A DNA stretch of 53,648 nt, from the NCBI GenBank assembly GCA_017447645.1, contig JAFSNA010000021.1, forward strand, positions 1 to 53,648. Direction: 5' to 3'. Under the pieces are notes generated by a model. It had not been told where the DNA came from. It worked only from the letters and a program-made list of their open reading frames with translations, and searched no databases. Positions 2,945 to 53,648 of the stretch are shown one piece after another. The DNA comes from Oscillospiraceae bacterium (GTDB taxonomy: Bacteria > Bacillota > Clostridia > Oscillospirales > Oscillospiraceae). Position numbers and translations under genes: made by a program. Numbering within the stretch: the stretch's first letter is position 1; each line of letters opens with the position of its first letter.

Positions 2945-3999
2945 AGAGAGAGAACACCAAGCAGATACGCGTCGGCTCCGTCGCCGTCGGCGGCGGCGCG
3001 CGCGTGAGCGTGCAGTCGATGTGCTGCACCAAGACCTGGGACGTCGAGGCGACGGTGGGACAGATCCTCGCGCTTGAGGCGGCGGGCTGCGACATCGTGC
3101 GCCTGGCCATCCCCGACATGCGCGCGGCGGAGGCGATCAGCGCGATCAAGGAACGGGTGCACATCCCGCTCGTGGGCGACATCCACTTTGACTACCGTCT
3201 CGCGCTGGAGGCGGCGGCGCGCGGCATCGACAAGATCCGCATCAACCCCGGCAACATCGGCGGCGAGGAGAACGTCAAGGCCGTTGCCGAGGCCTGCCGG
3301 AAGCGGGGTATCCCGATCCGCATCGGCGTGAACGCGGGCAGTCTCGAAAAGAGCCTGCTCGAAAAATACGGCCATCCCTGCCCCGAGGCGCTCGTCGAAA
3401 GCGCGCGGGGCCATATCGCGCTCCTGAACAGATACGACTTTGACGACATCTGTCTGTCTCTGAAATCCTCCTCCGTGCCGCTGACGATCGCGAGCTATCG
3501 CGCCGCGGCCGAGGCTTTCCCGTACCCGCTTCACCTGGGCGTGACCGAGACGGGCACGCTCTTCAACGGCACGGTCCAGTCAGCCGTCGGCATCGGCACG
3601 CTGCTCTCCGAGGGCATCGGCGACACGATCCGCGTCTCGCTGACGGCGGATCCCGTCGAGGAGGTCAGGGTCGGCCTTGCGATCCTGAAGGCCGCGGGCG
3701 TGCGCACGGGAGGCGTGAAGTTCGTCTCCTGCCCGACCTGCGGGCGCACGGAGATCGACCTGATCTCGCTGGCGCAGCGCGTCGAGGAGGCCGTCAGACC
3801 TATCGAGCGGGACATCACCGTGGCCGTGATGGGCTGCGTGGTCAACGGTCCGGGCGAAGCGCGCGAGGCCGATTACGGCATCGCCGGCGGCCGCGACAAG
3901 GGCCTGATCTTCAAAAAGGGCGTCGTCGTGGGGACCTGGCCCTATGACGAGCTGTTCGACGCGCTGCTGAACATGATCGAAGAGGACGGCCGGCCATGA
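2941..3999 (+). CDS. ispG: 4-hydroxy-3-methylbut-2-enyl diphosphate synthase (flavodoxin/ferredoxin)
   Basis: Iron-sulfur enzyme of the MEP pathway that converts MEcPP to HMBPP. The N-terminal TIM barrel contains the family segments VSVQSMCCTKTWD and DIHFDYRLALEA. The C-terminal half has the cluster ligands SCPTCGRT (about residue 261) and MGCVVNGPGEA (about residue 300), which bind the [4Fe-4S] cluster. At 352 residues it matches the bacterial short form. It overlaps rseP upstream and polC downstream by four bases each, placing it in one tightly coupled operon with dxr. Confidence 0.97.
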   Translation: MKRENTKQIRVGSVAVGGGARVSVQSMCCTKTWDVEATVGQILALEAAGCDIVRLAIPDMRAAEAISAIKERVHIPLVGDIHFDYRLALEAAARGIDKIRINPGNIGGEENVKAVAEACRKRGIPIRIGVNAGSLEKSLLEKYGHPCPEALVESARGHIALLNRYDFDDICLSLKSSSVPLTIASYRAAAEAFPYPLHLGVTETGTLFNGTVQSAVGIGTLLSEGIGDTIRVSLTADPVEEVRVGLAILKAAGVRTGGVKFVSCPTCGRTEIDLISLAQRVEEAVRPIERDITVAVMGCVVNGPGEAREADYGIAGGRDKGLIFKKGVVVGTWPYDELFDALLNMIEEDGRP

Positions 4000-50223: not shown

Positions 50224-50880
50224 ATGAGCTTGATTCCTGAGGTCAAATGCCGCCGCTGCGGAGAACGTTTTTCCTCTCTGCGCAGCCGCTGCCCGAACTG
50301 CGGCACCCGCCGCGTCACACAGAGCAGCCGCACGCCGAGCGCCACGCCCGGCACCGTCGGAGGGACCGCTTCGTATGAGCGTGCCGCCAGCAATACCAGA
50401 TGGCAGATGATCTTCGGTCTGATTCTGGTCGCCGCGGTGATCCTCGCGGTCATCGTGATGGTGACGACGAGCCTCAACGGCACGGACGTCTCCGTCAAGC
50501 CCAACAAGCCCGCCGCCGTCGCCCCGACCGTCGAGCCCGCACAGCCCTCGGCCGAGCCGGTCCCGACGCCCACGCCCACGCCTCCCCCCACGGTCGAGGT
50601 CCTGCAGATCCGCTTCAATGACAAAGAGCTGCCGGAATTCACCACCTATCCCGGCGAGATCCTGCCCCTCAACGCCTATGTTTCCCCGCTGACCATCACC
50701 GACAAGGTCAAGTGGAGCAGCGACGACAAGGACGAGGAGTTCTTCACGATCACCGTGGACAAGGACGACGGCAACAAGGTCACGTTCGAGTGCCTGAAGT
50801 ATTCCGAGACGCCTCTGAAGATCTACGCCGAGATCTTCGGCAAGAAGTACGAGTGCGTCGTCCGCTTCAGAAAGGCCTGA
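50224..50880 (+). CDS. Zinc-ribbon membrane protein with extracellular beta domain
   Basis: A 218-residue protein. Residues 8-27 form a zinc ribbon (CRRCG ... CPNCG). A polar linker leads to one membrane helix (about 60-82), followed by a Pro/Thr/Val linker with PTPTPTPPP and an about 85-residue beta-strand-rich domain that looks like a bacterial Ig-like (Big_2) fold (VLQIRFNDKELPEF, VKWSSDDKD). The zinc ribbon should be inside and the beta domain outside. Single gene with promoter and terminator. Function unknown; the fold calls are by eye. Confidence 0.78.
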   Translation: MSLIPEVKCRRCGERFSSLRSRCPNCGTRRVTQSSRTPSATPGTVGGTASYERAASNTRWQMIFGLILVAAVILAVIVMVTTSLNGTDVSVKPNKPAAVAPTVEPAQPSAEPVPTPTPTPPPTVEVLQIRFNDKELPEFTTYPGEILPLNAYVSPLTITDKVKWSSDDKDEEFFTITVDKDDGNKVTFECLKYSETPLKIYAEIFGKKYECVVRFRKA

Positions 50881-51088: not shown

Positions 51089-51778
51089 ATGGAGCACGGC
51101 TCAACGGTCCTCTTTCATATCGGCCCGCTGGAGGTGACGAGCGCCGTCACGACCATGTGGGCGATCATCGCGGTATTGACGCTGCTGTCCTGGCTGGCCA
51201 CGCGTCGTCTCAAGGAGGTGCCCGGCCCGCTGCAGAGCGCGGCGGAGATCGCGGTAGAGAAGCTGCGGGATTACTATGAGGGCCTGCTCGGAAAGAAGAA
51301 CGCGCGGAAGTACTTCCCGGTCTTCGCTACGTTTTTTGTCTTTATCATCATCTGCAACTACTCCGGGCTGCTGCCCGGCGCGGGACACCTCAAGGGCTTT
51401 GCGCTCCCGACGGCAAGCCTGTCCGTCACGGCGGGCCTTGCGATCGTGGCCTTCTTCACGACGCACGTCATCGGCGTGCGCGAGCGCGGATGGAAGCACT
51501 ATCTGCTCAGCTTCGCCCAGCCGCTGTATCTGTGCATCCTGATGCTGCCGCTGAACCTGATTGAGCAGTTCATCCGCCCCGCCTCGCTGGCGCTGCGTCT
51601 TTACGGCAACATGTACGGCGAGGAGACCGTGACCGAGAACCTCTATGCGATCTTTCCGATCGGCGTTCCGCTGATCATGAATATCCTGAGCCTGCTGTTC
51701 TGCCTGCTGCAGGCCATGGTCTTTACAATGCTGCTTTCGATCTATGTATCGGAAGCGGTCGAAGAGGAAGAAGAATAA
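51089..51778 (+). CDS. atpB: F-type ATP synthase subunit a
   Basis: A 229-residue membrane stator that carries the ion half-channels. The essential Arg lies in PASLALRLYGNMYGEE, the strictly conserved fourth-helix motif, and a partner region (FPIGVPLIMNILSLLFCLLQAMVFTML) forms the last helices. Five to six membrane segments. No atpI precedes it. The ATG at 51089 has TTGGAGGTG about eight bases upstream. First gene of the atp operon, with 33 bases to atpE. Confidence 0.95.
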   Translation: MEHGSTVLFHIGPLEVTSAVTTMWAIIAVLTLLSWLATRRLKEVPGPLQSAAEIAVEKLRDYYEGLLGKKNARKYFPVFATFFVFIIICNYSGLLPGAGHLKGFALPTASLSVTAGLAIVAFFTTHVIGVRERGWKHYLLSFAQPLYLCILMLPLNLIEQFIRPASLALRLYGNMYGEETVTENLYAIFPIGVPLIMNILSLLFCLLQAMVFTMLLSIYVSEAVEEEEE

Positions 51779-51811: not shown

Positions 51812-52039
51812 ATGGCAACCGGAACTATCGCAATCGCAGCCGCTATCGCGCTGGCCGTCACCGCCGTGGCGACCGCCACCGCCCAGGGCGTCACCGCCAC
51901 AAAGGCCATGGACGCCATCGCCCGTCAGCCCGAAGCCGCCGGCAACATCCGCGGCGCGCTCGTCATCGCGCTGGCGCTGATGGAGGCGCTGACGATCTAC
52001 GGCATGCTCGTCGCCTTCATGCTGATAGGAAAAATCTGA
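51812..52039 (+). CDS. atpE: F-type ATP synthase subunit c
   Basis: A 75-residue helical hairpin that forms the rotor ring. The ion-binding carboxylate is Glu58 in [11 protein letters not shown], and the polar loop is ARQPEAAGN (37-45). Helix 1 has Ala20, Ala22, Ala24 and Gly26 where most c subunits have GxGxGxG. Gln25 sits at the place of the sodium-binding Gln of Ilyobacter-type rings, but the E-S-T sodium signature after the Glu is A-L-T here, so proton use is more likely though not certain. AGGAGG site before the ATG. Confidence 0.95.
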
Positions 52040-52067: not shown

Positions 52068-52496
52068 ATGTTGAGCATCAACGTTTCGGAACTGATCTGG
52101 ACCATCGTCAACTTCTTCCTGCTGTATTTTCTGCTCAAGCACTTCCTGTATACGCCCGTTTCCCGTTTTCTCGACGCGCGCCAGGCGCGGCTGGATGAGG
52201 CCAAGGCAAAGGAGGCCGAGGCCCGCGCTGCCGCCGAGGAGAACGAGAAGGAGATCGAAGCCGGAAAGGCCCTCCACCGCGAGAAGGCGGCGGAGCTCCT
52301 GGCCGAGGCGCAGCGCGTCGACGCCGAGCGCAGCCGCGAGGCCTTTGCCGAGGCGGAGAAGGAGGCCGCGCGTTCGCTTGAGGACGCGCATGCTGCCCTC
52401 CGCTCCGAGCAGGAGCGGGAGCGCGCCTCGCTCGAGGGCGACACGCCGGAGCTCGCGGACATTCTGGCCAAGCGGCTTCTGGGCGAGGAAAAATGA
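52068..52496 (+). CDS. atpF: F-type ATP synthase subunit b
   Basis: A 142-residue peripheral-stalk subunit. One N-terminal membrane helix (LIWTIVNFFLLYFLLKHFLY, residues about 9-28) precedes the typical PVSRFLDARQARLDEA and a long Ala/Glu/Lys coiled coil to about 125. It is shorter than usual (about 160-170), and the C-terminal part that normally touches delta is brief. GGAGG about ten bases before the ATG. The next gene encodes a second b-type segment fused to delta and alpha, so the two b chains probably pair as a heterodimer. Confidence 0.93.
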   Translation: MLSINVSELIWTIVNFFLLYFLLKHFLYTPVSRFLDARQARLDEAKAKEAEARAAAEENEKEIEAGKALHREKAAELLAEAQRVDAERSREAFAEAEKEAARSLEDAHAALRSEQERERASLEGDTPELADILAKRLLGEEK

Positions 52497-52539
52497 AGCG
52501 GAGCTTTAAGACTGACAGCGGGAAGGAGATGAGAGGGAC

Positions 52540-53648
52540 ATGAGCGGTTGGAATATCGTCTACGGACTGATCAACTTCGCGATCCTGGCCGCGGCGCTGT
52601 TTGTCATCGGCCGCAAGATCGTGCTCAAGGGATACCGCGATCACCGTGAAAAAGTGAAAAATACGTTTTTGCAGGCCGACGAGAGCGTCAGAGAAGCGGA
52701 GCGCCTTCTCGACGCCATCCCGGACGCAAAGGCCGCGGGCGAGCGCGCCTGCGGCGAGATCCTTGACGCGGCCAGGGCTGCGGCCGAGGAGAACGGCCGT
52801 CTCGCGCGCGAAAAAGTCGCCGACGAGGCGGCGCGTCTTGCCGCGGAGAACGATCGGACGCTGGAGCTCGATCGCGCCGACCTGCGCCGTACGCTCGGCG
52901 GGGAGTCGGCGCAGAGCATTTCCGACGCCGCTGCCGCGCTGCTGGCGCAGGAGCGTTTCGCATCCCGGCGCGCGGCCCTGTGCCGGCGGCAGATCGACGC
53001 GTTCGTCGCCGACTACAGCCCCTATCCCGGCGAGCTGGAGAGCTTTGCCGACCTGGGCGAGGCGCGCATCTCCGTCCGTTTTGCCGAGGAGCCGCAGCAA
53101 GGCGAAGCCGAGCGCATCGCCCGCGCGGTCGCCGACGGGATCCGGAAGGCCTGCGGGAAGGACATTCCCGCCAGACTGAACGTCAGCGTCGATCCGGCGC
53201 TGATCGGCGGCGTGAAGATCGAGGTCGGGGACACCGTCTTTGACGGCAGTCTCGCCGATCAGCTTCGCCGCGCCCGGAAAACGCTCGCCGGAGCCGGCGA
53301 GGGAGAGGATCTCGCGGGAGAACTGAGAGAAAAGGTCTCGCGCTTCGAGGGAGGCGTCAAGGTCTATCAGATCGGGCATGTCGCCTCGCTCTCCGACGGC
53401 ATCTGCAGCGTCACGGGCCTGTCCGACGTCATGGCGGGCGAGATGCTGGCCTTCCCGGGCGCGCTGCGCGGCATGGTCATGGACCTGCGCGAGGGCAGCG
53501 TCGGTGTGGCGCTGCTGGGCAATTACGACGAGCTGCGCGAGGGCGATCTCGTGCTGCGTACCCGCCGCGTGATGGAGGTGCCCGTGGGCGAGGCCCTGCT
53601 GGGCCGCGTCGTGGACACGCTCGGCCGTCCCGTGGACGGCAAGGGCGA
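52540..53648 (+). CDS. ATP synthase b-prime / delta C-domain / alpha subunit fusion (partial, runs off the window)
   Basis: One open frame from ATG 52540 to the window end, at least 369 codons with no stop. Residues 1-165: membrane helix (VYGLINFAILAAALFVI) and b-type coiled coil. Residues about 168-250: C-terminal domain of delta/OSCP (LNVSVDPALIGGVKIEVGD, then DGSLADQLRRARK). From about residue 268: N-terminal barrel of the alpha subunit (GICSVTGLSDVMAGEMLAFP, LLGNYDELREGD, EVPVGEALLGRVVDTLGRP). The delta N-terminal six-helix domain and the first alpha helix are absent. Fused b-delta exists in mycobacteria; an added alpha is not something I know as standard. Stalk plus catalytic subunit in one chain. 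Confidence 0.85.
   Translation, partial: MSGWNIVYGLINFAILAAALFVIGRKIVLKGYRDHREKVKNTFLQADESVREAERLLDAIPDAKAAGERACGEILDAARAAAEENGRLAREKVADEAARLAAENDRTLELDRADLRRTLGGESAQSISDAAAALLAQERFASRRAALCRRQIDAFVADYSPYPGELESFADLGEARISVRFAEEPQQGEAERIARAVADGIRKACGKDIPARLNVSVDPALIGGVKIEVGDTVFDGSLADQLRRARKTLAGAGEGEDLAGELREKVSRFEGGVKVYQIGHVASLSDGICSVTGLSDVMAGEMLAFPGALRGMVMDLREGSVGVALLGNYDELREGDLVLRTRRVMEVPVGEALLGRVVDTLGRPVDGKG

Follow-up and report, generated by a model that had tools for sequence, protein, structure and literature searches.

The window analysed here is a stretch of 53,648 nucleotides of Oscillospiraceae DNA, contig C143 of a 148-contig genome (87% complete, 6.9% contamination). It ends inside a gene in which a b-type stator subunit (b'), the C-terminal domain of delta (deltaC) and subunit alpha follow one another. 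The locus raises the question of what stator an ATP synthase would have when its membrane anchor is part of the alpha chain itself.

The fusion frame (52540..53646, +) is open for 369 codons up to the contig end, and the rest of the gene lies on contig C24. AAGGAG at 52523..52528 (+) was read in the sequence as its likely ribosome-binding site, and a GGAG no more than 20 bases before the fusion start is present in 20 of the 25 fused relatives checked. Pfam places ATP-synt_B at residues 6-130, OSCP (PF00213) at residues 173-249 and ATP-synt_ab_N at residues 278-341, a domain order that confirms what had been read from the sequence alone, a single-frame fusion of b, the delta C-domain and alpha. 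The b' part (52540..53034, +) covers residues 1 to about 165 by Pfam and our own b profile, its end being approximate, and consists of a membrane helix followed by a coiled coil. The helix, at about residues 6-28 (52555..52623, +), is the only hydrophobic membrane stretch, with a hydropathy maximum of 2.37 over 19 residues at residue 6; beyond residue 40 of this frame, no further stretch of this length above 1.6 was found. The delta part (53056..53286, +) is limited to the C-domain, since the OSCP match covers profile positions 101-172 of 172, and the loss of the delta N-domain claimed by the sequence-only reading is thus borne out. That reading also held that the N-terminal helix of alpha was missing and that a link of about 20 residues replaced both lost parts. 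Neither point on alpha's helix or the link length stood: the match to the alpha model TIGR00962 begins at residue 257 with model position 6, and the delta model match ends at residue 249, leaving a spacer of about 7 residues (53287..53307, +). The alpha N-terminal helix and beta-barrel then occupy 53308..53646 (+; TIGR00962 positions 6-118 of 503). The alignment of Bacillus PS3 alpha chains with the family profile begins at residue 4 or 5 of these chains. The NCBIfam models for alpha, delta and the N-type ATPase B subunit each matched the window's frame partially, and none of the matches listed spans the whole fusion. The atpA model scores 786 bits on a full-length relative, L070.

Upstream of the fusion are atpB for subunit a (51089..51778, +; 229 aa; Pfam ATP-synt_A, E 2.1e-49), atpE for subunit c (51812..52039, +; 75 aa; Pfam ATP-synt_C, E 4.2e-13) and atpF for a free subunit b (52068..52496, +; 142 aa; Pfam ATP-synt_B, E 9.4e-14). 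The free b is the expected coiled-coil partner of the fused b. Subunit c has Glu followed by Ala, within MEALTIYG, which we take to be an H+-type motif. A gene at 50224-50880, starting MSLIPEVKCRRCGERFSSLRSRCPNCGTRR, precedes the operon; it occurs directly ahead of the atp operon in L030, L031 and L033 as well. The sequence beyond the window, where the end of alpha and the remaining subunits had been sought, was recovered from C24. The last 74 bases of the window (53575..53648, +) recur without a mismatch at the start of this contig, their only other full-identity place in the genome; beyond them, C24 completes alpha and continues with gamma, beta and an epsilon of 87 residues. Together, the window and C24 hold an F-type operon by Pfam and our own profiles, with parts of a, c, b, delta, alpha, gamma, beta and epsilon in the order a-c-b-fusion-gamma-beta-epsilon. 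The single two-domain delta that caps F1 in ordinary F-type enzymes is replaced by a C-domain fused to alpha.

A gene that ends with its contig could be an assembly or sequencing error or a decayed gene, and two fetched loci, L030 and L055, have frame breaks in alpha. However, b, deltaC and alpha were found in one frame in 44 fetched loci, a count that includes the window, L030 with its broken frame and L070, which was read as the same contig as L038 because contig and match lengths agree. The frame stays open from b through the whole of alpha, over 736-793 residues, in 42 of these 44, the other two being the window (contig end) and L030 (broken inside alpha); no stop codon or frameshift between delta and alpha, which would have separated the two, was seen in the 42. 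All 44 also have a separate b gene in the operon, and the alpha barrel has a dN/dS of 0.04-0.16. Because the fusion is conserved across relatives, chance and assembly error can be excluded, and we give this explanation virtually no credence.

Among 60 genomes searched with the 369-residue protein, 40 had a match, the genome of the window included. Within the genus, 26 of the 36 other genomes matched, four of them incompletely: G002 (frame break), G026 (frame break in alpha, locus L030), and G005 and G016 (contig ends). Of the ten others in the genus, which had no match, three that are at least 95% complete (G001, G008 and G027) yielded no F-type alpha in our searches, their only two rotary-ATPase genes being read as V/A-type; G021, also among the ten, has a piece of F-type alpha at a contig end. 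In the order sample (395 genomes, including that of the window), the matches listed included 13 genomes besides the window's own with the full fusion, under five family codes. One genome of this sample, G353, was scored there from position 85 and seen whole on locus scoring; in G255, the b part falls below the threshold of our own profile, yet it matches A2 from position 4. The class sample (393 genomes) added one carrier, G794, among the matches listed, and in G445 of that sample a stop lies between b and deltaC-alpha. Among the matches listed for the phylum sample (398 genomes), no carrier besides the window's own genome was found. The named collection has at least 7 carriers among the best 80 of 578 relatives. 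All are uncultured assemblies titled Ruminococcaceae, Oscillospiraceae, Clostridiales or Clostridia: RUG13294 and RUG282 (RUG presumably denoting rumen), UBA3758, and assemblies from goat ileum, roe deer colon, sheep rectum and horse faeces. A match in Acetoanaerobium noterae (83% cover) was rejected as a carrier, as it has ordinary separate b, delta and alpha. No place in the phage records covered 80% of the fusion. Three phage-named records (H6-H8) contain a near-complete alpha gene, matching the alpha part only, and are probably host DNA.

TIGR00962 and PF00213 were used to look for a second alpha or delta in 28 genomes, of which 24 carry the fusion. The fused gene was the sole match above the atpA cut-off in 21 of the 24. 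A separate atpA, which would have offered the enzyme a free alpha, was thus found neither in the window's own genome (87% complete) nor in 20 of the 23 other fused genomes. The three exceptions are G116 and G339, which have a second, ordinary operon with a free alpha and a complete delta, and G344, which has a second deltaC-alpha besides the fusion. A complete separate delta was accordingly confined to G116 and G339, so that only 2 of the 24 fused genomes hold an intact delta N-domain, in that second operon; in all 24 fused chains, the OSCP match starts at profile position 91 or later. Ahead of the deltaC-alpha gene on contig C36 of G344 lies an OSCP match that begins at profile position 34 and contains three stops; it looks like a decayed, stop-broken delta N-domain. 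In five genomes (G054, G114, G088, G291 and G237), the alpha and beta of the fusion enzyme are the only rotary-ATPase family matches of the atpA model. The window's own genome has further ATPase alpha/beta family matches on C119, C111 and C103; these are probably V/A-type ATPase genes and, therefore, a second rotary ATPase. RnfC was above the cut-off in 22 of 23 fused genomes and in 25 of 26 genomes without the b-fusion. Since it is equally common without the fusion, a special link to Rnf was rejected.

The suggestion of a new stator architecture is supported by these results: the b-deltaC-alpha fusion is conserved, the delta N-domain is gone and the window lacks an ordinary start codon for a free alpha. 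On balance, we think it probable that the genes encode a natural three-stalk F-type ATP synthase with up to three a-subunits. The fusion chain would run from a membrane-anchored b' through the delta C-domain into a whole alpha. With three copies of alpha in every F1, the enzyme would have three b'-deltaC arms, one per alpha, and since b is fused too, every alpha would bring its own membrane arm unless the chain is cut. In ordinary enzymes, the delta N-domain sits on the threefold axis and permits one stalk only; it is this domain, as Ueno et al. (2025, PMC12229609) argued, that restricts them to a single stalk. With that domain gone, three deltaC could sit one per alpha. Each b' would then pair with the free b encoded by atpF to form three b'b stalks, each of which would hold one a-subunit, and the protons moved per turn could reach three times the number of c subunits. 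Such a low gear would suit a cell that has to make ATP with a very small proton-motive force or, alternatively, one that exports protons in bulk per ATP. Three stalks, three a-subunits, a high H+/ATP ratio, H+ as the coupling ion and the absence of processing are all parts that we infer. Should the gear ratio follow, it would reveal how gut fermenters could obtain ATP when their proton-motive force is very small, or how they could pump out many protons for each ATP.

The multi-stalk design has so far been built and shown in the laboratory only. In the Bacillus PS3 enzyme made by Ueno et al. (2025, PMC12229609), delta was stripped of its N-domain and deltaC was fused to alpha. This deltaDeltaN-alpha enzyme is reported to bear as many as three stalks, an a-subunit accompanying each, and about two stalks and two a-subunits on average by gel. 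Its H+/ATP ratio is 5.8 vs 3.0, and it makes ATP at a proton-motive force where the wild type fails (PMC12229609). By cryo-EM, 15, 51, 26 and 8% of the engineered particles had 0, 1, 2 and 3 stalks, respectively (PMC12229609), and three arms, therefore, need not all assemble in the natural enzyme either. The fusion would fix a stoichiometry that the engineered enzyme could not, because a fused arm cannot fall off. An obligate, covalently locked enzyme of three b'-deltaC-alpha, three b and three a around one c-ring, with protons per ATP up to the number of c subunits, is a serious candidate, if somewhat short of probable. If true, such an enzyme would lie at the far end of the H+/ATP ratios found in nature, and some gut Clostridia would have no rotary ATPase besides it.

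It is also conceivable that all three b'-deltaC arms assemble around one a-subunit, with two of them acting as passive anchors that stiffen the stator at an ordinary H+/ATP ratio. Each fused operon scored has a single atpB gene, and the number of a-subunits is not fixed by sequence. However, the stalks of the engineered enzyme seen by cryo-EM always came with an a-subunit (PMC12229609), and we find this arrangement improbable.

Whether the arms stay attached to alpha depends on the joint, which has a dN/dS of 0.19-0.74 (31-32 codons, five pairs). The joint was considered as the fastest-evolving part of the chain, and this was rejected because the values are much like those of b' and deltaC (0.29-0.71), with the alpha barrel lower at 0.04-0.16. 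Its loose constraint means that it may be only a tether. In the alternative of a processed polyprotein, which the sequence-only reading also named, a protease could cut most chains between deltaC and alpha, leaving two free alphas and one uncut or re-bound arm in a single-stalk enzyme. A joint that tolerates this much sequence change could be exposed, and, according to Ueno et al. (2025, PMC12229609), every ATP synthase reported to date has one a-subunit only, none with several having come to light. Against such processing, no conserved motif was found at the joint, which differs in sequence among rows but hardly in length. Also, the match to alpha begins at model position 3-22 in 46 rows, which leaves little room for a removable peptide, and a 2:1 cut ratio would need to be held. 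Processing, therefore, seems unlikely to us.

Free alpha could alternatively come from an internal translation start and be mixed with some full-length fusion. An in-frame ATG, GTG or TTG is present near the joint in 44 of 46 rows, with a Shine-Dalgarno match of at least 4 bases in 18 of 46. However, the positions of these codons differ between species and a match of at least 5 bases occurs in 1 row of the 46, so an internal start was rejected as a conserved feature. The window itself has no such codon between those at 53212 and 53431, and the claim that none lies in frame in 53215-53430 was exact. We consider an internal start very improbable.

In the fused operons, subunit c has Glu followed by Ala in 44 of 44 (E-A-L in 42, E-A-I in 1 and E-A-M in 1), which suggests H+ as the coupling ion of the b-fusions. 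E-T or E-S is found in 16 of 18 deltaC-alpha operons and in 8 of 8 free-alpha operons, and L163 has E-T-L. Operons in which a full delta is fused to alpha have E-A-T in 7 of 10, E-G-T in 2 and E-T-S in 1. In 37 of the 38 fused operons where epsilon is readable, its C-terminal half is absent. The C-terminal part is also missing in 5 of 8 ordinary free-alpha operons, so a short epsilon is not special to the fusion.

The fetched loci were scored with profiles built from ordinary operons; those beyond the relatives were hand-picked from match lists, so that the counts are not frequencies. Besides the 44 with b, deltaC and alpha, there were 23 with deltaC and alpha, 9 with a full or nearly full delta and alpha, 1 with deltaC, deltaC and alpha, and 10 with a free alpha, two of them N-ATPase-like with b and deltaC. 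The 23 deltaC-alpha rows include L042 and L067 (cut at the contig end), L055 (frame break), L075 (described with the tree below) and L163, which has the length of the triple fusion with its b part under the threshold. The tandem deltaC-deltaC-alpha gene (L179 in G122) has a 681-residue open frame. In L045 (G051), a free delta of 72 residues, consisting of the C-domain only, lies at 3008-3226 beside an ordinary alpha. The full or nearly full delta-alpha fusions (L165, L170-L174 and L176-L178) have frames of 671-706 residues and come from several families; their three delta N-domains per F1 would compete for one axis.

The alpha tree was built from 99 sequences, including 15 named reference loci chosen from L078-L149, with L030, L055 and L070 left out. 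The fusions, L042 and L075 are set apart from the other sequences by a 46-row branch (support 99/90). L075, from assembly RUG044, has a deltaC-alpha gene preceded by a separate 324-residue b' frame in which two deltaC-like repeats can be seen by eye (b'-deltaC-deltaC), and it seems to represent the fusion in split form. Apart from L170, the delta-alpha and deltaC-alpha fusions form another group of 28 rows with the free alpha of L045 (99/96). Delta and alpha were thus joined on at least two occasions, possibly three, and in this sample b was added in only one of these lines. Full-delta and deltaC-only fusions stand side by side in the second group, which would be expected had the N-domain been lost once delta was fused.

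Several known systems share parts of this architecture. V/A-type ATPases have several peripheral E/G stalks, each on a non-catalytic subunit, with one a-subunit; these stalks belong to other protein families and are not known to be fused to the B subunit. The b subunit of N-type ATPases (TIGR03321), which is treated in PMC5706428, has b and a deltaC-like domain in one chain without the delta N-domain, and TIGR03321 matches residues 9-243 of the window's frame. In the two loci with N-ATPase order, L168 and L169, this subunit (271-281 residues) consists of b and a weak deltaC match without a delta N-domain. Unlike the fusion operons, these have the order beta-epsilon-a-c-b-alpha-gamma and a separate, distant alpha, and the alt_F1F0 alpha model gives 635 bits on L070, below its cut-off of 750.5. 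Fusions of delta and b are recorded for Gordonia and some Mycobacterium (PMC5709465). The mycobacterial b-delta (PDB 7jg5 chain d) likewise joins a b-type subunit to delta, but its delta is complete, with about 210 residues between the b and deltaC matches, and its alpha is separate (7jg5 chain A), whereas here the delta N-domain is absent and alpha is fused.

Our literature searches of the open-licence PMC library listed no description of a b-delta-alpha fusion. Natural deltaDeltaN-alpha fusions, namely that of Acidaminococcus fermentans and two UniProt entries, have been proposed to be multi-stalk (PMC12229609), and they share the joined deltaC-alpha with the present family but have no b part. 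The deltaC-alpha fusions fetched here, among which Acidaminococcus is not included, fall in the other alpha clade and mostly differ in the subunit c motif. The closest known system is the engineered deltaDeltaN-alpha enzyme of Bacillus PS3 (PDB 9jc1). Its chain 9jc1_I is the best PDB match of the family profile, with 190 residues aligned and the joint in register, 9jc1_I being 3 residues longer there. Both have a deltaC without its N-domain on the N-terminus of alpha and an epsilon without the C-terminal domain. The PS3 enzyme, however, is engineered and has a separate b2 dimer, whereas the fusion has a covalent b' and a second, free b gene. In most genomes examined of the b-delta-alpha lineage, the fused alpha is the sole alpha found, and with such a lineage it becomes directly testable whether multi-stalk ATP synthases are used in nature.
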